Below are positions 1,870 through 61,580 of a stretch of 64,000 nt of DNA, in pieces. Source of the stretch: Bacteroidetes bacterium endosymbiont of Geopemphigus sp. (GTDB taxonomy: Bacteria > Bacteroidota > Bacteroidia > Flavobacteriales > Blattabacteriaceae); NCBI RefSeq assembly GCF_002904345.1, contig NZ_PEIH01000005.1:674449-738448 (forward strand), in the 5' to 3' direction. The first letter of the stretch is position 1. Each line of letters opens with the position of its first letter. A program made the position numbers and the translations under genes. The notes under the pieces are model-generated. The model was not told where the DNA came from. It made no database searches and saw only the letters and a program-made list of their open reading frames with translations.

Positions 1870-1880
1870 AACTTTAGAAC

Positions 1881-13210: not shown

Positions 13211-13429
13211 TTGCTCAATGATATAAACTGAGAGCTTTTTAGGTAATTAACGATATTATGAAAGTAATCATAAATACACGGTAAATTCACTAAAATCTTT
13301 CTAAAATCCTTTTGAAAATTGCATTTAAGGGATATAATTGCAATGTAAGTATTTTACTGAATTACAATTTATTTCTTCATTTCAGAAGGAATATTCCCTC
13401 AATACTTTCAAGAAAGTAGATTATCGAAG

Positions 13430-14600
13430 TGTTTCCTACTCCTCATCCTTATGAGGAGATTGATAGCCCTTTCCATAATTTAATTCTTTCATAAAAGTGG
13501 TAGATGGGGTTCCTCAAATGTAAAAGAACCGGTAAATCTCCTGTATGTCTCAAATATTCCTGTGCAGTGTTGATCGCCTTATAAGAAAGATTCCCATTTG
13601 GGAGCTTGCGCGGGGTACACTGCGCACTGACTTAGTAAAAGTCTGCTCTCAGGATAACCGACAACGTTTATTGCCTGGAATCTACTATTAGACGGTACAA
13701 AGAATCATAGGATCAGCATTCCCAATATCCTCAGAGGACAAAATAAGCATGAACCGGGCAATAAATTTTACCTCCTCTCTGCCTTCGATCATCCGGTCCA
13801 ACCAATAAAGAGCAGCATCTTCCTGCGATGCGCGAAGCGATTTAATAAAAGCTGAGGAACTATCATATGTATTGCTCCTGCCTTATCATAACAAACAGAT
13901 TTTTGGGCAAGAGATTTCCTAACAAGCGTATCATCTACCTCAATGACAGATTGCTCCGAAAGCATGCTCACCACGAACTCAAGGGTATTGAGTAATTCTC
14001 GATCGTCTCCATTAAAATAAGACAATAAGGAACCGGATTGTCTAAAGAGAATTTTCTTTTTGGAAAGCGCCATAGATCTTTTTCAATGGCTTGCCTTCCC
14101 AGATCTTTAAGTTCCGCTATGGGTTAATAGGCAAAGTGTGTAAATTGAGCACGCGAAATCAAAGCGGTTACCACCTCAAAGCCAGAATTTTCAGTTGTAG
14201 CGCCAATCACAAGCTGAGCCAACCCCTCTTTTTCACCACCTCCAGTAAAGAGTTCTTGTTAGGATTTATTAAAACGATGAATCTCATCGATAAAAAGCAC
14301 CGGGACGTTAGCGGAAAAAGGTCAGATGTTTTAATTTTTTCAATTAGTTCGCAAACCTCTTTCAAACCCGAGCTTACTGCGCTTAACTGATGAAAAGACC
14401 TTTTTAAAACCTGAGCCAACAAACGCTCCAGAGTAGGACTGTACCAGGAGACTCCATAAGACCTTCTACGGCAGGTAATTAGCATGAAGCATCGTAATAA
14501 TCCCCTCAGGTCCCATAAGCTTGAGGCTGACCTATATAATCCTCCAGGGATTTAGGTCGCATGCGCTCAACTAAAGGAATTTCTCATATAATTTCTTAAT
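13430..14600 (-). pseudogene. rarA: Replication-associated recombination ATPase RarA (MgsA), broken
   Basis: RarA is an AAA+ ATPase acting at stalled forks. The minus strand from about 14600 reads LVERMRPKSLEDYIGQPQ, then ALKRSFHQLSAVSSGLKEV-like sequence with RSFHQLSAVSSG, then the Walker B/sensor region, including an NSLLEVVKKRGWLSL segment, then LLNTLEFVV and [20 protein letters not shown], ending with INTAQEYLRHTGDLPV. Frameshifts and stops separate these blocks and the Walker A segment is damaged (LLWSVCWL where GPPGVGKT-like sequence is expected). Length of the wreck is close to full size, so loss is by small mutations. Confidence 0.85.
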
Positions 14601-14645
14601 GATTTTCAAAGATACTAATTGCAAAATCATTATTTTTGCTAGGCC

Positions 14646-14888
14646 ATGAAAGTTCTTAGAAAGATCACCATCTGGCCTTTTATAATCTTAATCAGAGTGT
14701 ATCAACGAGCAGTTTCTCCGTGGCTTGGAGAGAATTGTCGTTTTGTGCCGAGTTGTTCAGCCTATGTTATGGAAGCCTTAAAAACATATGGACTTTTTTA
14801 TGGAAGTTTTCTGGGTTTAAAGAGAATTCTTCGTTGCCATCCATGGAGCAAAGATGGTTATGATCCACTGACGAAAGAAAATACTTGA
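14646..14888 (+). CDS. yidD: Membrane protein insertion efficiency factor YidD
   Basis: An 80-residue basic, amphipathic membrane-associated protein that aids YidC-dependent insertion. It has the family's diagnostic pattern: [13 protein letters not shown], then [15 protein letters not shown] with the conserved cysteines, then [18 protein letters not shown]. Its TGA overlaps the lgt ATG by one base (TGATG), so the two are likely cotranslated. Both serve the cell envelope. Confidence 0.95.
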
Positions 14889-17505: not shown

Positions 17506-19355
17506 ATGTATGAGCATACACATGATAAAGAAGTCAGTAGTCTTTACCAGTGGATATTAACTTTGGGGAGTTTTCTTACATTGATCTTAAGCATTTACTT
17601 AGATCACGATCTAAAAAGCAATTTTCTTAAAGAGAAAATACATTTGCTCTGGTATTTGATAGCTTACCTTCTCATAGCTTTTCCAGTTTTAGTACAAGCA
17701 GTCAGATATACTAAAAAAGGAAGCTTTTTTAATGAATTTTCTCTGATTCTTATGGCAACTCTTGGAGTATTCTATCAAGAGGCTGCCGTAAACAGAGCTA
17801 AAAGAAATATTAAGACCCTTCTGGACTATTCGACCTAAGACAGTTGAAGTGTTTAGAAATGATGTTTTCTCAAAAACCCATCCGGAGAATTTCCGTATTA
17901 TTCAAGTGCGTGCCGGAGGAAAGGTTCCGCTTGACGGATTACTACGTAAAGGTTTTGAATCTTCCTTTAATACAGCAGCTCTTACTGGAGAGAGCCGTCC
18001 CCAAAGACTAAAGAGCGGTAAAAACGTTCTAGCCAGAATGATTAATCTTCAAAAAACTATAGAAATCGAGGTTATCCAGATTTTTAAAGAGAGTTCTTTA
18101 GCTCGCGTTCTCGATCTGGTATAAAACGCCTCGTCTAAAAAAGCGCGTACTGAACAACTCATCAGTCGATTGGCAAAAATCAATACATCAATTGTAACAA
18201 GCATTGCGTTCTTATTTTATTTTTTTCCTTTTTTTTCCTTATTTTTTTGTAAAAAATTATGTGTTCGATGAGTGGTTTCATCTCTCGCTGATCTTTTTAG
18301 TGATTTCATGTTTGTGCCTTGGTCATTTCGATTCCACTGGACTATACCGGCGGGATAGGAGCGACTTCGCGTATGGGAATTTTATTTAACGGTTCAAATT
18401 ATCTTGATATAATGAGTCGGTTTAATACGGTAATTATGGACAAGACCGGTACCTTAACTAAAGGCGTATTTAATGTACGAGAAAATCGTATTGGGAGAAA
18501 AATATAACTCTGAGGAGGAATTTGGCACGTTAGCGGCAGCTCTGGAATCGAAATCCACACATCTGGTGGCGCAGGTCATTTGTCGTTGGATCGCTGAAAA
18601 AAAATATAGACATGCAAACTACTTCTATAAAAGAAATAGAAGTAATTTCAGGTTACGGTCTTACAAGAAAGGTTAATGATCGAAAAGTGCTTGCCGGAAA
18701 CCGAAAATTGCTAAAGCGGTACGCTATAGACTATCCTCTCATTCTTGATCAAAAGACAGATACCTTAGTAATGATAGCTCTAGATGATCGTTTCACAGGA
18801 TGTTTCGTGATCGCCGATGAACTTAAAAAAGATACCGCCCAGGCGATTGCGAATATGCAAGAGATATGTATAGAAAGAATTCTCTGCCTATCAGGAGATA
18901 AAAATTCCGTAGTACAAAAAACAACGCAATCACTAAACATTGGAGAAGCCTATGGAGAGTTGCTTCCTGAAGAAGGAAGGAACAGTGGAAGATATTAAAA
19001 AAAAGACTCCTATGTGCTTGCTTTTGCAGGAGATAGCATCAATGATACGCCAGTATTAGCTCTAAGTGACGTAGGTATCGTTATGGTGGGTCTTAGGTAG
19101 CGATGTAGCCATAGAAACAGCCGATGTGGTCATTCAAACAGATCAACCCTAACGAATTGTTACAGCTGTAAAATAGGGAAAGACACTAAAAAAATAATAT
19201 GGCAAAACATTAGCCTGGCTTTCATCATAAAAGGAATTGTATTAATCTTAGGAGTCGGAAATTTAGCAAATATGTGGGAAGCTGTTTTTGCCGATGTAGG
19301 TGTTTCACTTATAGCTATTATGAATGCCATGCGGATTCATAGAATAAATTTTTAA
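17506..19355 (+). pseudogene. Heavy-metal translocating P-type ATPase (P1B, Zn/Cd/Co-type), broken
   Basis: Remains of a metal efflux pump in shifting frames. The first two membrane helices and a NRAKRNIKTLLDYS linker are open from 17506 to 17838. The actuator domain has VPLDGLL and AALTGESRPQ (TGES). The membrane metal-site region reads CALVISIPLDYTGGIGATS, with the first cysteine of the usual CPC lost. The phosphorylation motif DKTGTLT (about 18438), VISGYG, the hinge GDSINDTPVLALSDVG (about 19030) and a last membrane helix follow. Stops at 17838, 18122 and later, plus several frameshifts, kill it. Confidence 0.9.
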
Positions 19356-31530: not shown

Positions 31531-33846
31531 ATGGCAAAAAATCTGGTTATCGTCGAATCTCCGGCCAAGGCCAAAACTATACAGGGTTATTTGGGTAAAG
31601 ACTTTGAGGTAGCATCAAGCTTTGGGCATATTGCCGACTTGCCTGAAAAAGGAATGGGCGTAGATATTCAAAATAATTTTGAGCCCGTTTATGTGGTGCC
31701 GCCTGATAAAAAGAGCACTGTAAAGAAACTTCAATCTATGGCTAGTAAATCTGATACCATATGGCTAGCTTCTGATGAGGATCGTGAAGGAGAGGCTATC
31801 GCCTGGCATCTTTACAAAGAGCTAAAAATACCTGAAAATAAGCTTCGTCGCATTGTTTTTCATGAGATTACGAAAAAGGCCATTATGCAAGCGATAGAAA
31901 AGCCGCGCGCCATCAATCAAGATTTAGTAGATGCGCAACAAGCGCGCAGAGTACTTGATCGTTTGGTGGGTTTTGAACTCTCTCCAGTGCTATGGAAAAA
32001 GATCAAAACCGGTCTTTCAGCCGGGCGTGTCCAATCCGTGGCAGTGCGCTTGATCGTGGAACGTGAAAAAGATATACGAGCTTTTAAAGCGGCAGAATTC
32101 TACAAAGTAGCCGCTCTGTTTCTCTCAGAAAAAGGAGAGGAATTTAAAGCGCAATTGGAAAACACCTTTGAAAACAAAGAGCAAGCAGAAGCGTTTCTAA
32201 AAAAATGTATGCATACACAATTCAGTGCTTACAAAATTGTAATAAAGCCTGGGAAAAAGAGTCCTTCTGCGCCTTTTACTACCTCAAGTCTTCAACAAGA
32301 GACCTCAAAGAAATTAGGTTATTCCGTAGCACGTACCATGCGTCTGGCACAACAATTATATGAAGAAGGGTATATCACCTATATGCGTACCGATAGTCTA
32401 AATCTCTCAGAAGATGCCATTACTGCAGTTAAAGATCATATCATTACACAATTCGGGGAAAAATATGCCTGTCCCAGGAGATATACTACCAAAAATAAAT
32501 CTGCACAAGAAGCGCACGAAGCCATCCGTCCTACAGATATAAACAAACTCCAGGTAGGCCAGGAGATAGCACAACAGCGCCTTTACGAGCTAATATGGAA
32601 GCGCACCCTTGCCGGGCAGATGTCTGAAGCGATTTTGGAAAGAACAATCTTATACATTCGTACGCCTGATCAAAGCGATTTTATTGCAAAAGGACAAGTG
32701 ATCACCTTTGATGGTTTTTTAAAACTATACAAAGAAAATAGTGAGATTATTAATAAAGGAGAATTTAAAGATCAATTACCAAAAATCAAAGAAGGAGAAT
32801 TGTTAAAAAACGAAAAAATCACTTCTATGCAGCGCTTTACTAAACATCCTCCACGTTATAGCGAAGCCTCATTAGTAAAAACTTTAGAAGAACTTGGTAT
32901 AGGACGTCCTTCCACTTATGTACCTACCATCTCAACCATTCAAAGGCGAAATTATGTGGAGCTTATGGATCTTGAAGGCAGCGAACGCTCTTATGAAATC
33001 ATGACACTTACCCAAGGAGACATTTTAAAAAAGCAAGAAAAAGAAATCATAGGTGCAGATAAGAAAAAGCTCATTCCCACTGATGTGGGAATAGTGGTAA
33101 ACGATTTCCTGGTAGGAAACTTTCAACATATTCTCGATTACGGATTCACCGCCAAGGTAGAAGAGAGCTTCGATGAAATCGCTAAAGGCAAAGAAGTTTG
33201 GAATACATTGATTAAAAGATTTTATAGCGATTTTCACCCAAAAGTAGAGGACGCTACTAAAAGCAGTGCAAAAAGTCATGGAGAACGATTGCTTGGTACC
33301 GACTCTAAATCTGGCAAAAGAGTTTTTGCCAGAATCGGCCGTTTTGGCCCGATGATCCAAATGGGTGAGGTAGAGAACGAAGAAAAGCCCAGGTTCGCAT
33401 CTTTATTAAAAGATCAACATATAGACAGTATTTCTTTAGAAGAGGCCTTACAATTATTTGAACTTCCAAGGAAGTTAGGAACTTTTGAAGAAAATGAAAT
33501 CAACGTAAGTATTGGACGCTTTGGTCCCTACATTAAGCATGATGGAAAATTCATCTCAATTAAAGAAGAAAGCGGCTACTCCCCTTATAAAATTACCTTA
33601 GAGCAAGCCATAGAGCTTATTGAGCGAAATCGAGAAGAAAGCGCTAAAAATCTTATTCGATGTTTTGAAGAAGTTGATCCACCTATAGAGGTGATCAATG
33701 GACGTTTTGGTCCCTATATCCGACAGAGGAAGGCTAATTATAAAATCCCAAAAAATCTGCAACTTGAAAAGCTTAATGTTGAAGTATGTAAAAAGATTAT
33801 TTCACAACCGAAACCCAAGGAAAAAAGAAAAAAATTTAAGGAGTGA
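31531..33846 (+). CDS. topA: DNA topoisomerase I (type IA)
   Basis: A 771-residue enzyme that relaxes negative supercoils. The Toprim domain has VIVESPAKAKTIQGYL and the metal-binding SDEDREGE (81-88). The catalytic tyrosine is Y284 in YITYMRTDS. The C-terminal third has repeated GRFGPYI/GRFGPMI-type modules (three copies, about 600-740) instead of zinc fingers, then a basic tail. This zinc-less C-terminus is a known form in Bacteroidota. The stop overlaps the next gene's GTG start by 4 bases. Confidence 0.95.
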   Translation: MAKNLVIVESPAKAKTIQGYLGKDFEVASSFGHIADLPEKGMGVDIQNNFEPVYVVPPDKKSTVKKLQSMASKSDTIWLASDEDREGEAIAWHLYKELKIPENKLRRIVFHEITKKAIMQAIEKPRAINQDLVDAQQARRVLDRLVGFELSPVLWKKIKTGLSAGRVQSVAVRLIVEREKDIRAFKAAEFYKVAALFLSEKGEEFKAQLENTFENKEQAEAFLKKCMHTQFSAYKIVIKPGKKSPSAPFTTSSLQQETSKKLGYSVARTMRLAQQLYEEGYITYMRTDSLNLSEDAITAVKDHIITQFGEKYACPRRYTTKNKSAQEAHEAIRPTDINKLQVGQEIAQQRLYELIWKRTLAGQMSEAILERTILYIRTPDQSDFIAKGQVITFDGFLKLYKENSEIINKGEFKDQLPKIKEGELLKNEKITSMQRFTKHPPRYSEASLVKTLEELGIGRPSTYVPTISTIQRRNYVELMDLEGSERSYEIMTLTQGDILKKQEKEIIGADKKKLIPTDVGIVVNDFLVGNFQHILDYGFTAKVEESFDEIAKGKEVWNTLIKRFYSDFHPKVEDATKSSAKSHGERLLGTDSKSGKRVFARIGRFGPMIQMGEVENEEKPRFASLLKDQHIDSISLEEALQLFELPRKLGTFEENEINVSIGRFGPYIKHDGKFISIKEESGYSPYKITLEQAIELIERNREESAKNLIRCFEEVDPPIEVINGRFGPYIRQRKANYKIPKNLQLEKLNVEVCKKIISQPKPKEKRKKFKE

Positions 33847-35000
33847 TTCAAGATTTCTTAGATTCAAAAAGTCAGGTTTTACAGGCTAGGAAAGAAAGTT
33901 TACATCCTTTTTCATTGTGCCATTCATTTAAAGCTTTTAGTGGAGACTGGAGAGTTCATAACGAAAAATTGGCTTTGGTTACCGTGAATGAAAATAGAAA
34001 TTCTGAGCAGGAAATTGCCATATCTACCGATATAAATAATATCAGAGAGGCTCTTTATACTTTATATACCGGTCAATGGAAAGAAAAACTATTGGATATA
34101 GGTAACATCCTTCAGGGTGCCTCTTTAGGAGATAGTATATACGCTTTGCGGCAAGTAAGCGGGGCCTTGCTAAAAAAAAATATCTTGCCTATAATTATTG
34201 GAGGAAATGATTTACTGACCTATGCTCAATACAGATCTCATGATGAAATTCATCAGGTTATGGAAGTGGTGCGTGTAGATAGTCGCTTTGATTTAGGTAT
34301 AGATCAAAGTCCTTTTTTGACCTCACAAACTCACTTGAATCATATGATAGTTCAGGAGCCGCAAAAACTTTTCAATTATTACCATCTAGCTTACCAGAGC
34401 TATTTAATAGCACCGCAAGAGGCAGATCTGATGATTTCAAAATTATATTTTGAATGTCACCGACTGGGTTCATTGATTGAAGATATTAGCGAGGCTGAGC
34501 CGGTGTTTCGTTCCTCCGATATGGCAAGCTTTGACATAAGCTCCATCCGCCTTGCAGACGCTCCTGGACAATTTTTCGGATCCCCTAATGGTCTCAACGC
34601 AAGAGAAGCATGTATCTTGGCAAGATATGCCGGGCTAAGCAATCGCATAAAATCTATTGGAATTTTTGGCTATCAATCGTCACGAGATATCTACGGCCAA
34701 AGCGCAAAACTTATCGCGCAGATGATATGGCACTTTATAGAAGGTTATTTCGCAAGGTGCCCAGATAAAGCTTTTGATAATGAAAAAGATTATAAACGCT
34801 ATCTAATAGCTCACGAAGATGAGCCACTAGTTTTCCTCGAAAGCATAAGTACCGATCGCTGGTGGATGGAATTGCCCTGTCTGGATAAACGGTCAAAAAA
34901 GCACTATGTAGCCTGCTCGAAAAATGATTACCTCAAGGCGCTCAATGGTGAAATTTTAGATCGCTGGTGGAATAGTTATAAAAGATATAATTTAAAATAG
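33843..35000 (+). CDS. Arginase/formiminoglutamase-fold protein with an altered metal site
   Basis: A 385-residue ureohydrolase-like protein starting at GTG 33843, in ATGA-like overlap with topA. Expected arginase motifs appear in changed form: IIIGGNDLLTYAQY where arginases have GGxHS/GGSxD, VRVDSRFDLG in place of DAHxD, and MASFDISSIRLADAPG in place of SFDxDxxDP. Several manganese ligands are therefore missing, so arginase or formiminoglutamase activity is doubtful even though databases often use that name. In Flavobacteriia this gene sits between topA and gldK. Here it is still open while the four gld genes after it are all broken. Confidence 0.8.
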   Translation: MIQDFLDSKSQVLQARKESLHPFSLCHSFKAFSGDWRVHNEKLALVTVNENRNSEQEIAISTDINNIREALYTLYTGQWKEKLLDIGNILQGASLGDSIYALRQVSGALLKKNILPIIIGGNDLLTYAQYRSHDEIHQVMEVVRVDSRFDLGIDQSPFLTSQTHLNHMIVQEPQKLFNYYHLAYQSYLIAPQEADLMISKLYFECHRLGSLIEDISEAEPVFRSSDMASFDISSIRLADAPGQFFGSPNGLNAREACILARYAGLSNRIKSIGIFGYQSSRDIYGQSAKLIAQMIWHFIEGYFARCPDKAFDNEKDYKRYLIAHEDEPLVFLESISTDRWWMELPCLDKRSKKHYVACSKNDYLKALNGEILDRWWNSYKRYNLK

Positions 35001-35093: not shown

Positions 35094-36290
35094 ATGAAAA
35101 AAATATTCTCCTAGATCGTGCTTTTCACTTTAATGCTTTCTTGCAATTTTCTGAAACGAAAGAATAAAAACCGTGGCCAACTTATCGTTACGGAACGAAT
35201 CAAACCCTGGAATATCGAGCGCCTCTATGGAATAGTTAAAATTCCTGGAGGCACATTTATTATAGGACAATCCGACTTACGATATGAGTGGAAACAATCG
35301 CCTGGCAGCTCCTTCAAGAACCGTGACCTTGTCAAGTTTTTTCATGGATGATAAGGAAATTACAAATGCCGAATACAGAAAATTTGTCTATGAGGTTCGA
35401 GATTCTTTAACCAGAGAACTCCTTGCTAAAATGGCTGAAGAATTAGCTGGATATGAACAAGATGAAGGCATAGGACAATACATCTATCTCAAAAAGAAGA
35501 GGAATAAGATCTTAGTCTTTATGAAGAGTATATTCGTTAAAACAGTACCGAGAGAGAGGGTGATTTCACAGAGAAGAAAGACCCTAAAATCAACTGGGAC
35601 GTACCGCTGGAATGGGATCTGAAAAAATATCCTAATGTGAGTTATACCGAAGTGATAGAATCTTTTTACTATCCACCTGATCAGAGAATAGACGGAGAAA
35701 AATCCATCGATCCGAAAAAAAAACTTAAATACGCCTACAAATGGATAGACACCGAATCCGCACTTAAGAGCGGAAAACCACTTGAAAGAGCATATCATTC
35801 GTGAGGAAATTGAAGTACATCCCGATACTACACACCTTGGGCCTAGGAATACACCGCCTGGATGGGGCCTTAGCAATGGCACTTATCCATAGGGAGAAAC
35901 CTATTTAACAGATGATAGGGGATGTTTTCTGGCTAACTTCAAGCCTCGCGACGAGGGAATTAATCTGGAAGGAAAAAAAGACCATATGTATACCAACCAA
36001 AGTGAGATCTTTCTCGCCTAACGGTTACGGTTTGTATGATATGGACGCTTTCCTATTTTAATAATGATGCTTATAAGAGCACCGCTACTTTAAACCCTTA
36101 CATTTATATAGAGATAAAAATCAAAAAAAAAGTTATAAAAGGAGGCTCCTGGAAGGATATCAGATATTATCTACAAGTAGGCGTACGTGATTTGTAATAC
36201 GCTGATTCATAGCGTATTTACATAGGATTTTAAACCATACAGCCCATACCTGAAAACGCTATTACAGAGTAAAGCAGGAAAAAAATAAAA
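35094..36290 (+). pseudogene. gldK: Gliding motility / type IX secretion lipoprotein GldK, broken
   Basis: GldK forms the outer-membrane-associated ring of the T9SS core with GldN. From ATG 35094 the frame stops after seven codons. Later frames carry a lipobox-like MLSCN, YGIVKIPGGTFIIGQSD, SFFMDDKEITNAEYRKFVYEV, INWDVPLEWDLKKYPNVSYT, ERAYH, the sulfatase-modifying-factor-like NTPPGWGLSNGTYP, and NLEGKKDHMYTNQSE. Many stops and frameshifts are present, but order and spacing match an intact GldK of about 450 residues, so decay is by point mutation and small indels. Confidence 0.9.
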
Positions 36291-36300
36291 TAAACAATCA

Positions 36301-36775
36301 TGGCATTAAAAGCTAACAAATAGGACAAGATATTCAATGTCGTTTATAGAATTGGAGTTTTTATCGTCATTTTAGGAGTAGTAGGAAAGCTATCACATGC
36401 TTCCTGGGGTGATTATGCTATTCTAAGATGATCGTTGAGGTGATTTTCGACCCCCTTTGCCGGAAAGTACGCCTGGGAGCGTGTCTACCCTGAACTCTCA
36501 TATGAAAACGTTCTCTCAAGTGAATCTTTCAAGCAATTACATGAAAGTATAGAATTGCTCAGAATAGCACCGATCTAACTGCTCTGGATAAATGAAAAAG
36601 ACACGCCTTCCTCCGAAGGCTGTACAGGACATGCTTAAAGCATGGAAACAAAGCCTTAGAGAGACCAGATTTTTAATACACTGAAAGCTCTTAGCAATAA
36701 ATTATCGACCATGAATAAGATCTATGAAAGCATGCTCGCCACTATAAGTCGAACTCAAAATCTATCTTAAGCGCT
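36301..36775 (+). pseudogene. gldL: Gliding motility / type IX secretion motor protein GldL, broken
   Basis: GldL is the inner-membrane, proton-driven motor component of the T9SS. The start MALKANK is followed by TAG, then FNVVYRIGVFIVILGVVGKL (first membrane helix) and SHASWGDYAI. The second helix region is mostly deleted; then FAGKYAWERVYPELSYENVL and FNTLKALSNKLSTMNKIYES with SMLATISR follow. Stops occur throughout. It begins 12 bases after the gldK remnant and keeps the native order. Confidence 0.88.
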
Positions 36776-36779
36776 AAAA

Positions 36780-38110
36780 ATGTCTCAACATAAAATCTCA
36801 CCTCGTCAAAAATGATCAACTTGATGTATCTGATATTCATCGCTATGATGATGATGAATATAGACCGTGAGGTGTTGAGATCTTTTGATTACACCAATCA
36901 AAGCTTGAAGAGGATAGCTGAAAAATGGGCGAGGACAACGAGTTGTTTTATGAAAATATTAAGAAAAAGTCTGCAAAAAATCTTAAAAAATACATTAAGA
37001 TATACAAAAAAGCATTCGATATAAAAAAACTATCTGAAGGTTTTTACCAGTAGATTGAATCCTTAAAAGATACTTTAAAAGAAAGCGCCAGCCTTGATGA
37101 AAAAGTGCAGAGTTTTGATTATCGGCGAATGGAATCCAGTCATTATGTGGATAATTTTTTTGATGCAGGTAAGCCCAATGCACGAGTACAAAGATTTAAA
37201 AACGAAATAGAGAATTTTCGCGCGCATGTCTCCTCATTTTACTCTAACTCAAATGAGACTGATAAAAAAGACTCCTAGCTGGAAAACAGATTTTTCAGAT
37301 AACCTTTCATTGCCTCGCTTACCAATTTTTCAAAAATCCAAATGGATATCCGAAATGAAGAATTTCGGACTTTCCTTTCAATGCTCAGGGGAAAATTAGA
37401 GGAGGATATAGCTGTGAATCAATTCGAAGCAATGGTGTTTGGGCCGAAAATGCTTATGCGTGGAGAAAAAGCGCAAGAAAAAATAGCTCTGGCCATTCGT
37501 GACACTTCCTTAGGGATACAAGTTTTGGAAAATGAACAAACGATACCTATTTCCTATAATTATCAGGTTATAGCAGATAAAGATAAACGATACGTAGAAA
37601 ATAAGATTTATGAAAAAACCTCAGAGAGCGTCATATCAGCGGATAAAATGAATGTGGTTTACCCGTGGAGTAGATAACCTATTCTAGCTCTATTCCAGGG
37701 TTTGCCCTCGGCAAACCTCTCGATGAGCGCCTCTACAGGAAAACTATCTAAAATAGGAATTGTCCGCTTGGTATATAGCCCCGGAAAAGACAATACTGTG
37801 GATTTCACATTAAGCGCAAAAACCACTACGGGAAAGATTATTTCGCAAAAAGAATTTCCGAATTAAGAATTACCTTCCAATCAAGGAAGGATAGACGGAG
37901 AAGCCGAACAGTAAATTCCGGAAATCTCACTGGAAAAAGTGAGCATAGGTGCGCAGATTCCCGGCTTTGAGTTTTCGGTAAAACTTATCGTAAGCGATTT
38001 TACCGTAAATCCTGGACATACGTATCATGAATACAAAAAAGCTTTTTCTGATTTCCGTTATACTCATAAATATAAAAATATGATCTCAAAGCCTTTTAAA
38101 GGCTAACTCA
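36780..38110 (+). pseudogene. gldM: Gliding motility / type IX secretion protein GldM, broken
   Basis: GldM spans the periplasm and transmits force from GldL to the GldK-GldN ring. The start SQHKISPRQK is frameshifted into MINLMYLIFIAMMMMNIDRE (the single N-terminal membrane helix), then VLRSFDYTNQSL. Later pieces are EEFRTFLSMLRGKLEED, EKIALAIRDTSLGIQV, MNVVYPW, then SMSASTGKLSKIG and PGKDNTVDFTLSAKTTTGK of the C-terminal immunoglobulin-like domains, and SDFTVNPG. Stops and frameshifts separate the blocks. The longest open piece is 37342-37677. Confidence 0.88.
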
Positions 38111-38855
38111 CCGGAAGAATTTAGAAAAACACTTCAAGAGAAAGAAGAAGAAGATGAATCTACGCCTTATCCTGAGGTAGAGGAAAAAGACATAGCTTGG
38201 TCCAAAGTGGTATAGGAAATCGTTGACCTGAATGAAAAAGTCAATCAAATCTATTACTATGATAATGATAAGCTGATCAATCCCCGAAAATCTCTTTTTA
38301 CAGGGATTAATTGAAGATATAAAAAAAAGGAAAAATAAAGTAAATATATGAAAATGAGACGTTTAAAAACAGGGTCAACGAAGCTGATTTACTTAAAAAA
38401 ACCAACGTATTGACACCACAGACGCAGGCTGGGAAATTCTCAATCGGGGAGGAATACTCACTGATGAGTATACAGACCGTCACGATGTTAAGAGCAGTGA
38501 CATAAACATGTTCAAGATCAAGGGAATACGGTATATGGATCGTCGCATGGGCGAATTATGCTATTGCCTTCTGGCGACTCGTTTCCATGGCTCCTGATCT
38601 TTATCAACTCATAAAAGATATAAGAGGAAGAATATAATATATTAAGCTCTTAATGACGATGGACCTACACAGGTGTCTTTTGATGATTTGCTAAATGCCC
38701 GAAAATTCTCTTCAGTAATTTATAAGGAGAGCAATCTCTACGGCAATCATCCTATCAAGGATTAACCTCCCCACAGGACGCTCATGAGCAAATTCAGGAG
38801 AGCCAACGAATCAAAGGGAATATACGGAAAAAAGAAGAAGAGATGTAGAATCCAT
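38111..38855 (+). pseudogene. gldN: Gliding motility / type IX secretion protein GldN, broken
   Basis: GldN partners with GldK. Remains include AWSKVV, EIVDLNEKVNQIYYYDNDKL, NPRKSLF, YETFKNRVNEADLLKKTNV-like sequence, DTTDAGWEILNRGG, then FKIKGIRYMDRRMGELCY, VSFDDLLNARKFSSVIYKE-like and NLYGNHPIKD. The end AHEQIQESQRIKGNIR lies near 38785-38850. Frameshifts and stops are frequent. dnaG follows within about 45 bases on the same strand. Confidence 0.85.
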
Positions 38856-38898
38856 AAAAAGATTGTAATTTTCAACTCTCTCAATATAAGATCGGCAT

Positions 38899-40806
38899 AT
38901 GATTTCTCAAGATACCATAGATCAAATCTTTTCCAGAGCTCTGGTAGAAGAAGTCATTGGAGATTTTGTACAGCTGAAAAAAAGTGGCAGCGCTTATAAG
39001 GGCCTAAGCCCTTTCGCGAATGAGCGCACCCCATCTTTTGTAGTCTCCCCGGCCAAACAAATCTGGAAAGATTTTAGCTCGGGAAAAGGAGGTAATGTAG
39101 TGAGCTTTCTCATGGAACATGAGCATTTTACCTATCTTGAGGCGCTCGGCTACCTGGCCAGGAAGTACAATATTGAATTCAAGGAAGAAAAAATGCGCTC
39201 AGCCGGAGAAGAACAAACGGCCAATGAAAAAGAAAGCCTTTACATCATTCAGGAATATGCACAACGCTTTTTCAGAGAGCAATTAAAAGAAAGCCAGGAA
39301 GAATGCAATATAGGGTTGAGCTATTTAAAAGAGCGAGGTTTTAGCGAGGAGACGATCGAAAAATTTCAACTCGGTTACGCCACGGAAGATCGCAAACGTT
39401 TTACCGAAAGAGCCCTTAAAGAAGGTTTTCAAATGGAATATCTGGAAAAGTCTGGGCTCAGTATCATAAAGAGTGAAGAGGTATTTGATCGGTTTCGCGG
39501 ACGCATTATCTTCCCTATTCATAGTTTTTCAGGCAGAGTCCTGGGCTTTGGCGGCAGAATTCTCAGGTCAAACGCCCACGCGGCGAAATACCTCAACTCA
39601 CCTGAAAGTAATATCTATCATAAAAGCCAGATTCTCTATGGCATTCATCAGGCCAAGCAAGCCATTTTAAAGGAAGGTAACTGCCATCTAGTAGAAGGTT
39701 ATACTGATATGATTTCTCTCTATCAAGCCGGCGTGCAAAATGTGGTGGCTTCTTCCGGAACGGCTCTTACGGTGGATCAAATCTGTCTGATCAAAAGACT
39801 CACAACCAATATAGTTTTACTCTATGATGGAGACTCAGCAGGTATTAAGGCAGCCCTTCGGGGAATAGATCTGATTTTAGAGCAGGAAATGAACGTACGC
39901 GTACTTTTATTTCCTGACGGAGAAGATCCCGATTCTTTCGCGCGCAGCCATACCTCCTCGGATCTTATCGCTTTTCTTAAGGAAGAAAGTCAAGACTTTA
40001 TACATTTCAAAACCCAGCTTCTCCTTAAAAAAGGTAAAAATGACCCCATAAAGCATGCTACGCTGATTCGAGATGTAGTGGAGAGCATTTCGAAGACGTC
40101 TAATTTGATTCGCCGTGAAGTATACATAAAAGAAACAGCGAAAATGTTGGAAATAAGCGAGCGAGTGCTTTTTCAGGAGCTCGCCCAGATCGATCGAAAA
40201 AGCCTGAGGGAAGAAGAAAAAAAGTTTCGACAGGAAAGTATCCGTGCAAAAATTCAAATCAACCTAGAAAGTACCGATGAGATAGATCCGCTTGAAATTC
40301 TTGAGGAAGAACTTATCAGTTTGATGCTGCTGCACGGCGAGCATCCGCTTCCGGCTGTTGAAGGCCTCTCAAAAGAGCGGAATATTATTCAGGAAGTAAT
40401 TGAGCATTTCGATGCAGATCACATGGGATTTTCTAATCCCTTTTATCAAAAAATTTTTAGGGAAATTCAGGAAGGCCTTGCAAAAAATGAATATAGAACA
40501 GTCAATTATTTCCTTGAGCTAAACGATGAGACATTAGCGCGTTTTATCTCTTCAAAATTAGTGGAGCCTGACCAGCTGGCGCGTTTTGATAAGAAAGGAA
40601 TTCATATAATACCCAGGGAGAAAAAATTAACCCATTATTTTCAACAGGCGCTCTTACGCTATAAAGCCCACTATATCTCAAAACTTATCGAAAAGCGGAA
40701 AGATGCCTTAAAACAAGCAAACGATGCAGATCTATCTCTGAAAGAGATTTGCAGATTAATCGATTTGAAAAATAAGATCAACAAAGAATTAGGACGTGAA
40801 GTATAG
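38899..40806 (+). CDS. dnaG: DNA primase
   Basis: A 635-residue primase that makes RNA primers at the fork. The N-terminal template-binding domain reads KGLSPFANERTPSFVVSPAK and DFSSGKGGN; the CHC2 zinc ligands (CPFH and CFGCG in most bacteria) are all replaced. I recall the same replacement in other Flavobacteriia, so it is probably lineage-wide and not damage. The Toprim core is intact: VEGYTDM (266-270) and YDGDSAG (310-315). The C-terminal helical domain expected to bind DnaB follows. The frame is clean although it lies just after four pseudogenes. Confidence 0.94.
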   Translation: MISQDTIDQIFSRALVEEVIGDFVQLKKSGSAYKGLSPFANERTPSFVVSPAKQIWKDFSSGKGGNVVSFLMEHEHFTYLEALGYLARKYNIEFKEEKMRSAGEEQTANEKESLYIIQEYAQRFFREQLKESQEECNIGLSYLKERGFSEETIEKFQLGYATEDRKRFTERALKEGFQMEYLEKSGLSIIKSEEVFDRFRGRIIFPIHSFSGRVLGFGGRILRSNAHAAKYLNSPESNIYHKSQILYGIHQAKQAILKEGNCHLVEGYTDMISLYQAGVQNVVASSGTALTVDQICLIKRLTTNIVLLYDGDSAGIKAALRGIDLILEQEMNVRVLLFPDGEDPDSFARSHTSSDLIAFLKEESQDFIHFKTQLLLKKGKNDPIKHATLIRDVVESISKTSNLIRREVYIKETAKMLEISERVLFQELAQIDRKSLREEEKKFRQESIRAKIQINLESTDEIDPLEILEEELISLMLLHGEHPLPAVEGLSKERNIIQEVIEHFDADHMGFSNPFYQKIFREIQEGLAKNEYRTVNYFLELNDETLARFISSKLVEPDQLARFDKKGIHIIPREKKLTHYFQQALLRYKAHYISKLIEKRKDALKQANDADLSLKEICRLIDLKNKINKELGREV

Positions 40807-54539: not shown

Positions 54540-55880
54540 ATGAAAGATTCACGAAAGGAAATACATTTATTAATCGCTCTAGGTGTCTTTTTTTCTATTG
54601 CTTTTCAAACGCTCAGGGCACAGAATAAAATTAAAGGGAATGCCGAGAACGGCGCTTCTCTTTATAAGACCAATTGTACAGCATGCCATGCCACTGACCT
54701 TACAAAAAAACTTATAGGCCCCGCTCTTTCTCGCGTCACCGAAAAAAGAAGCCGCGATTGGCTTCACAAATGGATTAAGAACAATAAAGCTTTAAGAGAA
54801 AGCGGAGATAAAGACGCCCTTGCCATTTATGAAGAGTATGGTAAGGTAGAAATGAATCTGTTTCCTCAGCTCTCCGAAACTGATATTGACGACATTCTTT
54901 CTTTTATTAAGAATCCTCCAGGACCTAAAGAGGAAAAAACTCCTTCTGAAACAAACGGTAAAAATTTACAAGATCCTTCAAGCGGAACTTATACAAAACT
55001 AATCCTAATAGGATTTGCAGTACTATCGGTTATATTGCTGTTAATTCTGATTAGAATTTACACGCTAATCCGCGTTCTCAACGCCAAAACTTTTGATGAA
55101 TACAAAGCAAGTAAGAAGAAAATATCAATAAATATCCCCGAGATTCTTGAAAAATACCGCACTCTTGGCTATTCCTTGATAGGGGCGCTATTTCTTTTAT
55201 CACTTTTCGGGCTATGGGATTTTCTGATGAATATCGATGTCAATAAAGGTTACCAGCCTAATCAGCCTATTTATTTTTCTCACAAAATCCATGCGGGAAT
55301 TAACAAAATTGATTGTCAATATTGTCATTCGAGCGCCAAATACGGAAAGGTCTCTGGAATTCCCTCAGCTAATGTTTGTATGAACTGTCACTTGATTATC
55401 AACGAGTATAAAGGGGATTATATAGAAGAGGGGAAAGACAAAGCTTTCTATACCTCTGAAATTCAGAAGATCTACAAATCTATTGGATGGGATCCAAATA
55501 CGCGTACCTACTCAGGTAAAAATGAGCCCATACGATGGACGCGTATTCATAATATGCCGGATTTCGTCTACTTTAACCATTCGCAGCATGTAATATTAGG
55601 AGAGGACGCCATTAAAAAGTCGAAAAATGTAGATGTAGTCTGCAAAGCTTGCCATGGCGAGGTACAGGAGATGGACAAAATAAAAATAGCGAATGATTTT
55701 ACTATGGGCTGGTGCGTCAGTTGTCATCGTACCATAGAGGTAGATATGAATAATAAATATTACACGGAATATTTCAACGAATTACATGAAAAACTGAAAA
55801 AACAGCATGGCAGTAAAGCTAATCCAAAGATTACCGTAGATGCTGTGGGCGGTATAGAATGTGCTAAATGTCATTATTAA
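54540..55880 (+). CDS. actA: Alternative Complex III subunit ActA, six-haem cytochrome c
   Basis: A 446-residue membrane-anchored cytochrome of the quinol:electron-acceptor oxidoreductase. An N-terminal signal ends near LRAQ. One CxxCH (46-50) lies in a monohaem domain, then two membrane helices (about 152-172 and 211-230), then five further CxxCH sites at 259, 280, 368, 392 and 441, a fused mono- plus pentahaem layout. All six haem sites are intact, and the protein needs the system II maturation factor encoded at 41782. First gene of a six-gene operon. Confidence 0.94.
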   Translation: MKDSRKEIHLLIALGVFFSIAFQTLRAQNKIKGNAENGASLYKTNCTACHATDLTKKLIGPALSRVTEKRSRDWLHKWIKNNKALRESGDKDALAIYEEYGKVEMNLFPQLSETDIDDILSFIKNPPGPKEEKTPSETNGKNLQDPSSGTYTKLILIGFAVLSVILLLILIRIYTLIRVLNAKTFDEYKASKKKISINIPEILEKYRTLGYSLIGALFLLSLFGLWDFLMNIDVNKGYQPNQPIYFSHKIHAGINKIDCQYCHSSAKYGKVSGIPSANVCMNCHLIINEYKGDYIEEGKDKAFYTSEIQKIYKSIGWDPNTRTYSGKNEPIRWTRIHNMPDFVYFNHSQHVILGEDAIKKSKNVDVVCKACHGEVQEMDKIKIANDFTMGWCVSCHRTIEVDMNNKYYTEYFNELHEKLKKQHGSKANPKITVDAVGGIECAKCHY

Positions 55881-55903
55881 TTTAAAAAATTACAGCTGAA
55901 AGC

Positions 55904-58900
55904 ATGGATTCAAAGAGAAAATACTGGAGAGGATTGCCTGAGCTGCAGAACGAGAATCTCAGAGAAGAGCTAGCGGGAAAAGAATTCCCTCAGGAGATTC
56001 CCGTGGAAGTTTTTCTCTCTAATCAGAAAAAACTTGAAGCAGAAAAAACCACACGTCGCGACTTTCTCAAATGGATGGGATTCGGGACAGCCGCGGTAGC
56101 TTTGGCTGCCTGTAAAGGACCTGTTATTCGTTCGATTCCGTATGTGGTAAAACCCGATTCAATTACACCGGGCATACCAAATTACTACGCCTCCACGATG
56201 TTCGACGGCTTCGACCTAGCGAGTGTTTTGGTTAAGACTCGCGAGGGAAGACCTATCAAAATTGAGTCTAACACCATCGCTCCATATTTTCAGAGCATCT
56301 CAGCGCGTATACAAGCTTCACTGCTTTCTCTATATGACGATGAACGCTTAAAAGGGCCTGCGATCAAGGGAAAATCGGTATCATGGGATACATTGGATGA
56401 ATATGTTACAGAACGGCTGAAAAAAGTACACGAAAGCGGTAGACAAATCGTTTTGCTTTGCTCTTCTTTTCCAAGTCCCTCAACTAAAAAATTGTTCTGG
56501 AATTTCTCACAGATCTACCCTACGGCACGCCTGGTTACTTATGATGCCTATTCTTATTCCTATGCTCTGGAAGCTACCGAGGAAATATTAGGCACAAGGG
56601 CCTTGCCTTATTATGAGCTTTCAAAAACTGAACTGATCGTCTCTTTCGATGCGGATTTCCTGGGACACTGGAGTCCTGAGAGTCTCGAGAAAGTTTACGC
56701 TAAGCGTAAGAAACCGGCTTCCGATATGCTCACACACATTCAGATAGAAAGCAATATGAGCCTTACGGGTGCCAATGCCGATACGCGTATTCCGCTGAAA
56801 CCATCACAAGTGCGTAAAATGCTAGCCGAAGTATACAAGGCACTTAACGGAGGTTCGACAAACACGAGAGCGCAAAAAATAGCCCAGGCTATTAAAGACA
56901 AGGGCTCTAAAGCGGTAGTTTTCGCCGATGGAAGTAAAGAAGCGTATGCATTGGCCTTATTGATCAATAAGCAGATCCAAAGTGGGTCACTTAAAAAAGA
57001 TCGTTTTTTGCTTGCCAAAGAAAGCGATGACAAGGCTTTTGAGAGATTCATTAAAGATCTTAAGGAAGATCATATAGGAGCGGTTTTAGTGAATGATACC
57101 AATCCTTTATATAGCTTTTCCGCGGCGGAGGAACTAAGAGAAGCATTAAAAAAAATTAAACTCACCGTCTCATTTGCCATCAAAGAGGATGAGACCTCAG
57201 AAGTGATGAAAGTATGGGCGCCTAAACACCATTGGCTAGAGAGCTGGGGAGATGCTTATCCTATTACGGGTATGTACACGCTGACGCAACCGGTCATCCA
57301 ACCTATATTTAATACCCGTCAACTGCAGGATTCTCTACTTACATGGAGCAAACCTGGAGAAGGAAATTTAAGTTTTGACAGGGAAAGCTTACTGAGTTGT
57401 TATGATAATTGTAACGGAAAAATCCCTACCTATTATGATTTTCTAAGAAGCTTCTGGGAGAGAAATATATTACCTAAAGCTAACGTTTCTTCTTTTAACA
57501 AATCTCTTTTTGATGGGTTCGTAGAAATACCGGAAAATCCGGAACTTAATACTCTCGCCATCGATGAGTCCCCCTATCTCAGGGGACTCATAAATACATC
57601 TGAAAAAAAAGATCTTGAATTAAGGCTTTATACAAAAACAGCTATAGGAGACGGGGTACAAGCCAACAATCCCTGGTTGCAGGAATTACCGGATCCTATC
57701 ACAAGAACTACCTGGGAAAACTATGTTACTCTCTCATCAGCTGATGCTAAAAATTTGGGCATTCGAAACTGGCATATCGGAGATGGAGCAATGAACGGAA
57801 ATTGTGTCAACCTTAAGATGGGTAACATAAATCTTGAAAAGATTCCTGTATATATTCAACCAGGACAAGCGTTAGGCTCAATAGGTTTGGCCTTAGGATA
57901 CGGCCGCGAAAAAGGAAAAGCGGCACTTCAAGCAAGTGGCGTCAACGCTTATAAGCTTTATAAAAATTTCAATATATTCCAGGAGGGAATTCAACTTGAA
58001 AAATCTGAAGAAATTCATAAATTTTCCTGCATTCAGCTGCAACACACCTTAGTAGGAAGAACTTCCATTGCACGAGAAACCGATCTGGAAACTTTTCTGA
58101 CTCAACCCAAGAAAGTTTGGAATGAAGAAGAAAAAATAGGAACTTATAAGGGGAAAATTCCCTCTAATAAGGTCACTCTTTGGAAAGAGAAAGACCGCAC
58201 TCAGGGTCATCACTTCAATCTTTCGGTGGATTTGAACGCTTGCACCGGATGCGGTTCTTGCATTATTGCCTGTCACGCGGAAAATAACGTTCCGGTAGTG
58301 GGCAAGGATGAAATTCGCAAATCAAGAGATATGCACTGGCTGCGTATCGATCGTTATTATTCTACCGAAGAGAGTTTTGAGAGTCTGGAAGAAAAAGGTC
58401 TTTCGCAAAAGAATATGTTTTCCGAGCCGGAGATGTACACGCATTTACTCGAACCTGAAACCAATCCACAAGTGATTTTTCAGCCGGTGATGTGTCAGCA
58501 TTGCAATAATGCACCCTGTGAAACGGTTTGTCCAGTAGCGGCTACATCACATGGCGGACAAGGTCAGAATATGATGGCTTATAATCGCTGCGTGGGAACA
58601 CGTTACTGCGCCAATAACTGTCCTTATAAGGTACGTCGCTTCAATTGGTTCAATTATGCAGAAAACGACAAATTTGATTTCTACATGAATAATGATCTGG
58701 GGCGAATGGTATTAAATCCTGATGTAGTGATCCGAAGTCGTGGCGTAATGGAAAAATGCTCTCTATGTATTCAGATGACGCAAGCCACCGTATTAAAAGC
58801 AAAAAAAGAAAGACGAAAAGTAAAAGATGAGGAATTTCAAACCGCTTGTACCAAAGCTTGTCCTACGGAAGCTTTGAGCTTTGGAGATATTAACGATCAA

Positions 58901-59017
58901 GAAAGTCAGATAACTCAAAAACTCAAAGAAGACAGAAGTTACAAACTACTAGATTTTATCGGAACTCGACCCAATGTGTTTTATCAGGTGAAAGTAAGAC
59001 ATTCGAAAAAGATTTAA
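55904..59017 (+). CDS. actB: Alternative Complex III subunit ActB, molybdopterin-oxidoreductase-like iron-sulfur protein
   Basis: A 1037-residue periplasmic subunit. It begins with a variant twin-arginine signal (RRDFLKWMGFG, arginines 51-52) and an AAC lipobox-like site. The large middle part has the molybdopterin oxidoreductase fold; in characterised complexes it binds no cofactor. The C-terminal ferredoxin-like part has CTGCGSCIIAC, CQHCNNAPCETVCP, CVGTRYCANNCPYK and CSLC...CTKACPTEAL, ligands for four clusters. It lies 23 bases after actA. All cysteine motifs are intact. Confidence 0.95.
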   Translation: MDSKRKYWRGLPELQNENLREELAGKEFPQEIPVEVFLSNQKKLEAEKTTRRDFLKWMGFGTAAVALAACKGPVIRSIPYVVKPDSITPGIPNYYASTMFDGFDLASVLVKTREGRPIKIESNTIAPYFQSISARIQASLLSLYDDERLKGPAIKGKSVSWDTLDEYVTERLKKVHESGRQIVLLCSSFPSPSTKKLFWNFSQIYPTARLVTYDAYSYSYALEATEEILGTRALPYYELSKTELIVSFDADFLGHWSPESLEKVYAKRKKPASDMLTHIQIESNMSLTGANADTRIPLKPSQVRKMLAEVYKALNGGSTNTRAQKIAQAIKDKGSKAVVFADGSKEAYALALLINKQIQSGSLKKDRFLLAKESDDKAFERFIKDLKEDHIGAVLVNDTNPLYSFSAAEELREALKKIKLTVSFAIKEDETSEVMKVWAPKHHWLESWGDAYPITGMYTLTQPVIQPIFNTRQLQDSLLTWSKPGEGNLSFDRESLLSCYDNCNGKIPTYYDFLRSFWERNILPKANVSSFNKSLFDGFVEIPENPELNTLAIDESPYLRGLINTSEKKDLELRLYTKTAIGDGVQANNPWLQELPDPITRTTWENYVTLSSADAKNLGIRNWHIGDGAMNGNCVNLKMGNINLEKIPVYIQPGQALGSIGLALGYGREKGKAALQASGVNAYKLYKNFNIFQEGIQLEKSEEIHKFSCIQLQHTLVGRTSIARETDLETFLTQPKKVWNEEEKIGTYKGKIPSNKVTLWKEKDRTQGHHFNLSVDLNACTGCGSCIIACHAENNVPVVGKDEIRKSRDMHWLRIDRYYSTEESFESLEEKGLSQKNMFSEPEMYTHLLEPETNPQVIFQPVMCQHCNNAPCETVCPVAATSHGGQGQNMMAYNRCVGTRYCANNCPYKVRRFNWFNYAENDKFDFYMNNDLGRMVLNPDVVIRSRGVMEKCSLCIQMTQATVLKAKKERRKVKDEEFQTACTKACPTEALSFGDINDQESQITQKLKEDRSYKLLDFIGTRPNVFYQVKVRHSKKI

Positions 59018-59041
59018 TTCAAGCCACTATAACTAAGAACT

Positions 59042-60442
59042 ATGTCAGGTCATTACGAATCCCCCATAAGAGAGCCTCTGATTTTAGGAAACAAAACCTA
59101 TCATGACATCACACAAGACGTTGCGCGTCCTATAGAGAGCAAGGCCGGAAAACTCTGGTGGATCACTTTTGGGACGGCGCTTATGGCGCTCGTCTGGGGT
59201 ATGGGTTGCATTCTTTATACCATAGGAACAGGTATCGGCGTGTGGGGATTGAATCGCACCGTCAACTGGGCATGGGATATTACCAATTTTGTCTGGTGGG
59301 TAGGTATCGGGCACGCCGGAACTTTGATCTCGGCTGTACTTTTGCTATTTCGTCAAAAATGGCGCCTTTCCATCAACCGCTCAGCAGAGGCTATGACGAT
59401 CTTTGCCGTGGTGCAAGCCGGTCTGTTTCCAATCATTCATATGGGACGTCCCTGGGATGCTTATTGGGTATTACCTATTCCTAACCAATTTGGAACGCTC
59501 TGGCCTAACTTTAATTCCCCTTTGCTTTGGGATGTTTTCGCTATCAGCACTTATTTTTCGGTGTCAACTGTATTTTGGTTTATGGGACTGATTCCGGACT
59601 TCGCGATGATTCGCGACCGCGTCACCAAGCCCATTCAAAAAAAGATTTACAGTATACTGAGTTTTGGTTGGGGTGGTAAGGCCAAACACTGGCAGCGCTT
59701 TGAAGAATTGTCCCTAGTACTTGCAGGCCTGTGTACTCCTCTGGTATTTTCAGTACATACCATCGTTTCTTTTGACTTCGCCACCTCTGTTATCAAAGGT
59801 TGGCACAGCACGGTTTTTCCTCCTTATTTCGTAGCGGGAGCGATTTTCTCAGGCTTCGCGATGGTGCAAACCCTTTTAGGTGTAGCGCGTAAAGTATTGC
59901 ACTTAGAAGATTATATCACCCAAAAGCATATAGAGTACATGAACATCGTGATCGTTGTTACCGGTGGAATGGTAGCGGTAGCCTATATCACAGAGTTTAT
60001 TCTGGCCTGGTATTCGGGAAGTCCTTTTGAGGATTTTACCTATTTTTCTCCCGGCGCGGCCACAGGACCATTCTGGTGGGCTTTCTGGGCATTGATCATC
60101 TGCAATGTTTTGCTGCCCCAAGCATTATGGTTCAAATGCGTGCGCCGGAGTTTTTTTTGGTCATATGTAATTTCGATTTTCATCAATATAGGCATGTGGT
60201 TTGAGCGTTTTGACATCATTGTTTTGAATCTTAGTCATGATTATCTTCCATCTACTTGGACGGGATTTTTACCGTCTTTTGTGGATATCGGAATTTTTAT
60301 CGGTACCAACGGTTTTTTCTTTGTGTTGTATCTTCTTTATGCAAGGACTTTCCCAGTGATCGCACAAGCAGAATTAAAAACCATCATGAAATCATCGAGC
60401 GAGAAATATAAAAAAATGAGAGATGAGCAAGGGAACCACTAA
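59042..60442 (+). CDS. actC: Alternative Complex III subunit ActC, NrfD-like membrane quinol-binding subunit
   Basis: A 466-residue polytopic membrane protein with roughly ten hydrophobic segments. It begins with a short cytoplasmic N-terminus (PIREPLILGNKTYHDIT), then WWITFGTALMALVWGMG. Family marks include VWWVGIGHAGTLISA, HMGRPWDAYW and FFVLYLLYARTFPVI near the end. ActC is one of the two NrfD-type subunits thought to bind quinol and carry proton paths. Its last 20 bases overlap the start of actD. Confidence 0.94.
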   Translation: MSGHYESPIREPLILGNKTYHDITQDVARPIESKAGKLWWITFGTALMALVWGMGCILYTIGTGIGVWGLNRTVNWAWDITNFVWWVGIGHAGTLISAVLLLFRQKWRLSINRSAEAMTIFAVVQAGLFPIIHMGRPWDAYWVLPIPNQFGTLWPNFNSPLLWDVFAISTYFSVSTVFWFMGLIPDFAMIRDRVTKPIQKKIYSILSFGWGGKAKHWQRFEELSLVLAGLCTPLVFSVHTIVSFDFATSVIKGWHSTVFPPYFVAGAIFSGFAMVQTLLGVARKVLHLEDYITQKHIEYMNIVIVVTGGMVAVAYITEFILAWYSGSPFEDFTYFSPGAATGPFWWAFWALIICNVLLPQALWFKCVRRSFFWSYVISIFINIGMWFERFDIIVLNLSHDYLPSTWTGFLPSFVDIGIFIGTNGFFFVLYLLYARTFPVIAQAELKTIMKSSSEKYKKMRDEQGNH

Positions 60443-60962
60443 AATTGTCTACGGACTCTACGATGATGATGATCTTACGATACAGAGCATCAAGTCTTTG
60501 CGAAAAAAAGGTGTACAAATTCATGAGGTATATACTCCCTTTCCCGTACATGGAATAGATAAGGAACTTGGCCTGAAAAAAACTCGAATATCTGATTTAT
60601 CTTTTGTGTATGGACTTTTTGGAACTACTCTTGCCTGCGTGCTTACTTGGTATACCATGATTCATGACTGGCCTCAAGATATTGGGGGAAAACCCGCATA
60701 TGCCTGGTATATGAATTTGCCAGCTTTCATTCCCATTATATTTGAGCTGACGGTATTCTGCGCAGCGCATTTCATGTGCATCACATATTTAATACGCTGC
60801 AGACTTTTCCCCGGCGCTCCACCACAGAATCCAGATCCAAGAACTACTGATGATAAATTTTTAATAGAACTTCACACTTCCGTAACAGAGGTAGATGAAT
60901 TGGTAAGTGAGTTTAAAGAAAGCGGAGCGATAGAGATCACCGTAAAAGAGTTAGCCTCATGA
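60423..60962 (+). CDS. actD: Alternative Complex III subunit ActD (DUF3341)
   Basis: A 179-residue protein: a cytoplasmic alpha/beta domain (KIVYGLYDDDDLTIQSIKSL, then HEVYTPFPVHGID), two membrane helices (about 60-85 and 95-120, with the conserved KPAYAWYMNLPAFIPIIFEL region), and a cytoplasmic tail with DDKFLIEL. It overlaps actC by 20 bases and actE by 4. In known complexes ActD packs against ActC; it has no cofactor. Confidence 0.93.
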   Translation: MSKGTTKIVYGLYDDDDLTIQSIKSLRKKGVQIHEVYTPFPVHGIDKELGLKKTRISDLSFVYGLFGTTLACVLTWYTMIHDWPQDIGGKPAYAWYMNLPAFIPIIFELTVFCAAHFMCITYLIRCRLFPGAPPQNPDPRTTDDKFLIELHTSVTEVDELVSEFKESGAIEITVKELAS

Positions 60963-61561: not shown

Positions 61562-61580
61562 TTTCAGAAAGATCGCTACC

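Follow-up and report, generated by a model that had tools for sequence, protein, structure and literature searches.

Which genes once filled the largest gap in a 64,000-nt stretch of the genome of the Bacteroidetes bacterium endosymbiont of Geopemphigus sp., and what did their decay mean for the cell? The stretch (the window, whose positions serve as coordinates below unless contig C4 or a locus label, L..., is given) belongs to C4, a 1.05-Mb contig of a genome that comprises 1,317,719 bases in five contigs and is 92.16% complete. Coding density is low, the chosen open reading frames (ORFs) of at least 130 amino acids (aa) together with the rRNAs amounting to 72% of the window, and five gaps exceed 700 bases. 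In the largest, 3.9 kb between an arginase-like gene and dnaG, no coding-strand ORF of at least 130 aa was found. A sequence-only reading had placed here gldK, gldL, gldM and gldN, the core of the type IX secretion system (T9SS) and of gliding motility, in this order and in decay. Frameshift-aware profile alignment bears this out: remnants of all four genes lie at 35094-38845 on the plus strand in the order K-L-M-N, with scores far above those of shuffled sequence (Table 1). We consider it nearly certain that these are four genuine pseudogenes of a former gldKLMN operon, and that T9SS secretion and gliding have been lost in a reducing genome.

The profiles were built from the intact operons of 19 genomes of the same order (order relatives; genomes of the window's own family are called family members), drawn from 28 order genomes matching GldM, with a twentieth locus, L068, dropped for its weak GldM match. 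Alignment to the window used dynamic programming that allows stops and frameshifts, and null scores came from shuffling the region of each gene 40 times. The gldK remnant has 84 profile columns deleted in total, with an internal block gone, and its first open piece matches the GldK model TIGR03525 under the cut-off (expectation value (E) 2.3e-6, 27 bits). The gldM remnant matches TIGR03517 at E 2.1e-25, likewise under the cut-off and with stops inside the match. Only two scraps survive of gldL, recognisable over ~88 of 218 profile columns (11-75 and 193-215), and its break count depends on the penalties, a cheaper frameshift penalty giving three frameshifts and no stop. The description of the remnants as long and alignable is therefore wrong for gldL and passes over the missing block of gldK, and that of several stops and frameshifts in each gene holds for gldK, gldM and gldN and only loosely for the fragmentary gldL. 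Summed over the operon, 17 in-frame stops and 14 frameshifts make 31 breaks in ~3.3 kb, counts that vary somewhat with the penalties.

Table 1 Coordinates of the gldKLMN remnants and their neighbours in the window
Feature	Position	Strand	Evidence
gldK remnant (ring lipoprotein), pseudogene	35094..36242	+	score 392 vs shuffle maximum 32.8; 6 stops, 5 frameshifts
gldL remnant, N-terminal membrane part	36327..36500	+	score 50 vs shuffle maximum 28.5; 2 stops, 0 frameshifts
gldL remnant, C-terminal scrap	36681..36749	+	score 42.5 vs shuffle maximum 24.5; profile columns 193-215
gldM remnant (motor shaft protein), pseudogene	36780..38007	+	score 188 vs shuffle maximum 29.5; 5 stops, 4 frameshifts
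gldN remnant (ring component), pseudogene	38084..38845	+	score 152 vs shuffle maximum 29.8; 4 stops, 5 frameshifts
topA (DNA topoisomerase I), intact upstream neighbour	31531..33846	+	TIGR01051 685.9 bits, over cut-off
Arginase/formimidoylglutamase-like gene, open, immediate upstream neighbour	33843..35000	+	TIGR01227 E 1.7e-15, 57 bits, below cut-off 229
dnaG (primase), intact downstream neighbour	38899..40806	+	TIGR01391 423.7 bits, over cut-off; 635-codon open frame

Breaks of this kind would also appear if sequencing or assembly errors had disrupted an operon that is intact in reality, an explanation to which we give almost no credence. Leave-one-out alignment of the 19 intact operons by the same method yielded 0 stops and 0 frameshifts over 26,494 codons (8,175 + 3,871 + 9,507 + 4,941). 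Within the window, topA (765 aligned codons) and the arginase-like gene (338 aligned codons) have neither stops nor frameshifts, as judged against length-selected sets of 18 and 14 rows, respectively, in which leave-one-out identity goes as low as 0.20 and 0.35, and nine long genes are open across 5,688 codons, compared with the 31 breaks of the operon. The zero counts in the control operons and in both window neighbours argue that the breaks are local to gldKLMN and do not reflect a general error rate. Moreover, whole blocks are deleted, and breaks recur in the distant, functionally linked genes sprA and porV. Recoding or programmed frameshifting in gldKLMN was ruled out, the breaks being many and irregular, with deletions alongside.

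Both sprA and porV, which the sequence-only reading had proposed to look up, are present elsewhere in the genome as broken remnants. The SprA model matches 13 pieces along C4:928,690-933,862, 10 of them with stops, and the remnant of this translocon gene carries 21 stops and 25 frameshifts, with 559 of 2,282 profile columns deleted; just upstream lies an ORF that we take to be ruvA. This profile comprises four relatives (a fifth, L096, yielded no ORF of suitable length), and in all but one of its four rows the sequence starts later than the open frame it was taken from. Among the controls, SprA is over the cut-off and unbroken in five of six order genomes, with no match in the sixth (G058) nor in either of two family genomes. 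The porV remnant adjoins gldJ at C4:15,034-16,177 and, when aligned to a profile built from two relatives, shows 2 stops and 7 frameshifts. A PorU-type peptidase gave 0 matches in the genome and is missing from two of six order controls too; since a PorU query from one relative scored 53 versus 52 for the reverse-complement null, no PorU remnant is claimed. With the PorP/SprF model, the match was limited to 33 codons within a frame of 46 aa, and one of four order controls had none.

Exported cargo was among the suggested searches. With one domain model, which leaves out the type B sorting domain, the T9SS C-terminal sorting domain has three matches in the genome at E up to 0.1, of which one, in an open 124-aa ORF, is over the cut-off. 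The corresponding numbers in six order controls are 54, 0, 4, 47, 71 and 105; at the same threshold, some match was seen in 6 of the 14 unrelated control genomes as well, one over the cut-off. The two other matches were rejected as cargo, as they fall under the cut-off and no ORF above 100 aa surrounds the weaker one (E 0.03).

In functional T9SSs, a proton-driven motor of GldL and GldM sits in the inner membrane, and GldK and GldN build the ring in the periplasm. The breaks in the genes for GldK, GldL, GldM, GldN, PorV and the SprA pore should prevent the machine from assembling, so that secretion and gliding through it would be lost. As far as sequence can tell, the T9SS is very probably dead in this symbiont, which upholds the earlier claim that the secretion and gliding core has been lost, given that no second GldM was seen and that sprA and porV are broken. 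A plausible course of events is that selection relaxes in a lineage undergoing genome reduction, whereupon stops, small indels and deletions would accumulate at near-neutral rates; symbiosis would be the underlying cause.

Several points weigh against the loss of the system. At 92.16% completeness, the missing sequence might contain an intact copy, and the portions of the literature consulted place gldKLMN on a plasmid in Cardinium cBtQ1 (PMC6147030). The genome-wide second-copy searches covered GldM and GldK, not GldL and GldN, and SprE and SprT were outside the tests. The 124-aa ORF (L080:1318-1692) has a signal-like start and a sorting domain over the cut-off, and is open despite the broken export machine. 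PorV pieces in one frame, when summed, reach the curated cut-off (93.1 versus 90 bits), yet with 14 stops inside. Furthermore, gldJ is largely open, the parts of the system being unequally decayed. Finally, a Bacteroidota ectosymbiont of a termite flagellate is described, in the part of the source consulted, as keeping a complete T9SS (PMC12483993), and symbiosis alone hence does not imply loss.

The incomplete assembly, the plasmid-borne operon of cBtQ1 and the open sorting-domain ORF would also suit a T9SS that still works because other copies exist, be it on a plasmid or in an unsequenced part. However, a profile search found no second GldM in the genome sequence, the sole GldM matches being the window locus, and no second GldK either, as a model of the FGE-sulfatase fold that takes in both GldK and GldJ matches only the gldK remnant and the open GldJ. 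Intact second copies, which the sequence-only reading had itself named as the contrary finding, thus did not turn up for GldM or GldK, the two proteins searched genome-wide. In addition, SprA and PorV exist as remnants only, PorU is without a match, as in some order controls, and PorP is confined to its short frame. We therefore regard a working system encoded elsewhere as very unlikely, and retain the loss of the T9SS.

How long ago the genes died was approached with a model of neutral decay that starts from codons resembling those of the nine intact window genes, with four mutation settings and 95% Poisson limits. The stop fraction of gldKLMN (17/1,097) then corresponds to 0.10-0.13 substitutions per site (limits 0.054-0.242) and that of sprA (21/1,707) to 0.08-0.10 (limits 0.045-0.168), rough figures in that stops go undetected in deleted or unalignable parts. 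With an equilibrium stop fraction of 0.066-0.088, both loci are far from saturation. Their break densities do not differ (binomial test; p = 0.51 for stops, p = 0.74 for frameshifts), which is compatible with a loss of gldKLMN and sprA at about the same time. Collectively, these figures suggest a fairly recent, undated T9SS loss, ~0.08-0.13 neutral substitutions per site ago. The "recent loss" of the sequence-only reading accordingly stands in a relative sense, and its "dated snapshot" is an overstatement, as a date would call for a clock rate or a close sister genome.

The exception among the T9SS genes is the lipoprotein gene gldJ, located on the minus strand of C4 (L083:9464-10885). Its 473-aa open frame matches TIGR03524 at E 2.2e-100 with 337 bits versus a curated cut-off of 458.2, GldJ still being the best family, and it adjoins a 430-aa ORF, presumably murF; four relatives have ORFs of 418-427 aa beside gldJ. 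Alignment to five relatives revealed a single frameshift, which affects approximately the final 25 aligned residues. The frame upstream of it is free of stops, whereas the shifted tail contains one, and 57 profile columns are deleted. Mutants of Flavobacterium johnsoniae with a truncated gldJ reportedly lose fewer residues than are affected here. Identity to the consensus of the relatives is 42% (192/461), compared with 50-55% for the five intact relatives (leave-one-out), and codon-position GC content lies inside the range of 11 intact genes. At the stop density of the operon, 7.3 stops would be expected, with 0 found in 472 codons (P = 0.0007), and at its decay level six frameshifts instead of one, a comparison that was made post hoc and assumes the same onset and rate of decay as in the operon.

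These observations indicate that selection probably continued to act on gldJ once the rest of the system was dead, and that the gene is at present either beginning to decay or functional in a shortened form. We consider it probable that gldJ is a late-decaying member of a dead system with no present function, as the C-terminal frameshift, the stop in the shifted tail, the reduced consensus identity and the bit score below the cut-off would suggest. The deficit of stops and frameshifts fits late decay, but also allows present selection, and the codon-position GC within the intact-gene range points away from decay. A T9SS-independent role, in which GldJ has outlived motor, ring and translocon, is still selected in a C-terminally shortened form and serves the cell envelope in the absence of the machine that it supposedly stabilises, appears doubtful in comparison; if it were real, the persistence of GldJ beside an incomplete T9SS in Cardinium and Amoebophilus strains would be consistent with it. 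In the order sample, among the matches listed, G099 and G356 match GldJ and not GldM, and G090 and G239 match GldM and not GldJ, at thresholds of E up to 0.001 for GldM and up to 1e-20 for GldJ, whose model GldK can also match, and compared by eye. GldJ without GldM seems rare in the order, and the four discordant genomes may be due to assembly gaps.

To place the loss in the family, GldM was searched in 80 genomes, comprising the window's own genome, 48 other family members and 31 order relatives. None of the 48 family members matches, compared with 28 of the 31 order relatives (27 over the cut-off); in a larger draw from the order, 333 of 393 genomes match, 328 of them over the cut-off. The family thus shares the end point of having no working GldM, and the window's genome differs in being larger, 1.3 Mb versus 200-600 kb in the other 48 members, and in that the remnants are still visible. 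The small genomes of the family and the decayed look of other window stretches make it plausible that this lineage was becoming dependent on a host, as the sequence-only reading had put it; the "flavobacterial ancestor" of the same reading rests on the same-order assignment of the relatives with intact operons and on the family's genome sizes, which suggest Blattabacteriaceae (Blattabacterium, Sulcia and kin).

The surroundings of the operon have fared differently on its two sides. In the order loci around gldM (20 loci of ~19 kb each), a topA homologue is found in 16 and an arginase-like homologue in 14, and a DnaG homologue in none. Conversely, gldL, gldM and gldN were found at 0 of 18 distant named dnaG loci with flanks of 3-10 kb, where the gldK profile alone matched two (L033, L044). 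The upstream context therefore appears ancestral and the downstream side changed, and an ancestral adjacency to dnaG was rejected. The setting between an arginase-like gene and dnaG had thus been described correctly as to position and upstream neighbour, and incorrectly as to an ancestral dnaG. The dropped locus L068 (G072:C1), comes from an order relative that is 83% complete, and its GldM match, in an open frame of 393 codons, is weak and partial (E 5.4e-4); homologues of topA, the arginase-like gene and DnaG were not found around it, and the match is possibly due to chance or to a divergent relative.

Elsewhere in the window, intact and damaged genes lie side by side. The genes hisB, hisH, hisA and hisF are open at 140-3380 (+), each over at least one curated cut-off, histidine biosynthesis being kept while other genes decay. 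The metG gene (methionyl-tRNA synthetase) runs from 9347 (+) to 11161 and is matched to profile position 555 of 676; a tRNA-binding domain, as often found at the C-terminus of methionyl-tRNA synthetases, matches at 11227-11385 (+) in a frame that differs from that of metG, and this appended domain may have been cut off. A partial match to a mutator-type transposase (PF00872) lies at 11713-11952 (+), and 12000-14884 (-) contains pieces of a RarA/MgsA-type AAA protein in two frames, one over the cut-off, as well as a phage-integrase SAM-like match below the cut-off; judged from their sequence, these matches are further decayed genes. A partial E1-E2 ATPase domain match at 17897-18253 (+), in a stretch without an ORF of at least 130 aa, is probably a broken transporter. 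At 54540-62906 (+), genes for a cytochrome c, a 1037-aa protein with molybdopterin/Fe-S-type matches and an NrfD-type membrane protein stand open in a row, an arrangement that we take to resemble alternative complex III; respiration may have been kept.

Bacteroidota symbionts are already known to lose the T9SS, and this genome is an instructive intermediate. In the portions of the sources consulted, gldKLMN is reported from some Cardinium strains and not others (PMC6147030, PMC6387759, PMC12342168), and GldJ from cCpun, cSfur and A. asiaticus (PMC6387759, PMC12342168). A gradual loss of the T9SS during genome reduction was proposed (Siozios et al. 2019, PMC6387759), an idea that a 2025 review, in the part consulted, calls unexamined (PMC12342168). 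Cardinium and Amoebophilus (Amoebophilaceae) are, like the present symbiont, Bacteroidota endosymbionts with an incomplete or absent T9SS. In the accounts consulted, however, their gldKLMN is described as present or absent and not as in-place pseudogenes, whereas here, in another family, gldKLMN, sprA and porV persist as remnants and gldJ is largely open. A literature search that left most subscription journals outside found no report of T9SS or gliding remnants in this family. What is new here is that sprA and porV have decayed in parallel and that gldJ has survived.

The other 48 family members, which show no GldM match, cannot order the T9SS losses; this genome makes the order readable and provides a direct case for gradual T9SS erosion in symbionts. 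Beyond the order of loss and gldJ, it reflects ordinary reductive evolution. The survival of gldJ raises the testable question of a GldJ role without a T9SS, for which F. johnsoniae offers the closest comparison: truncation of GldJ at its extreme C-terminus, according to the partial account at hand, leaves secretion intact and abolishes gliding (Johnston et al. 2018 via PMC8444969). The end of GldJ is missing in the symbiont as in these mutants, but here GldK, GldL, GldM, GldN and SprA are lost too, so that the shortened GldJ would have no machine to serve.

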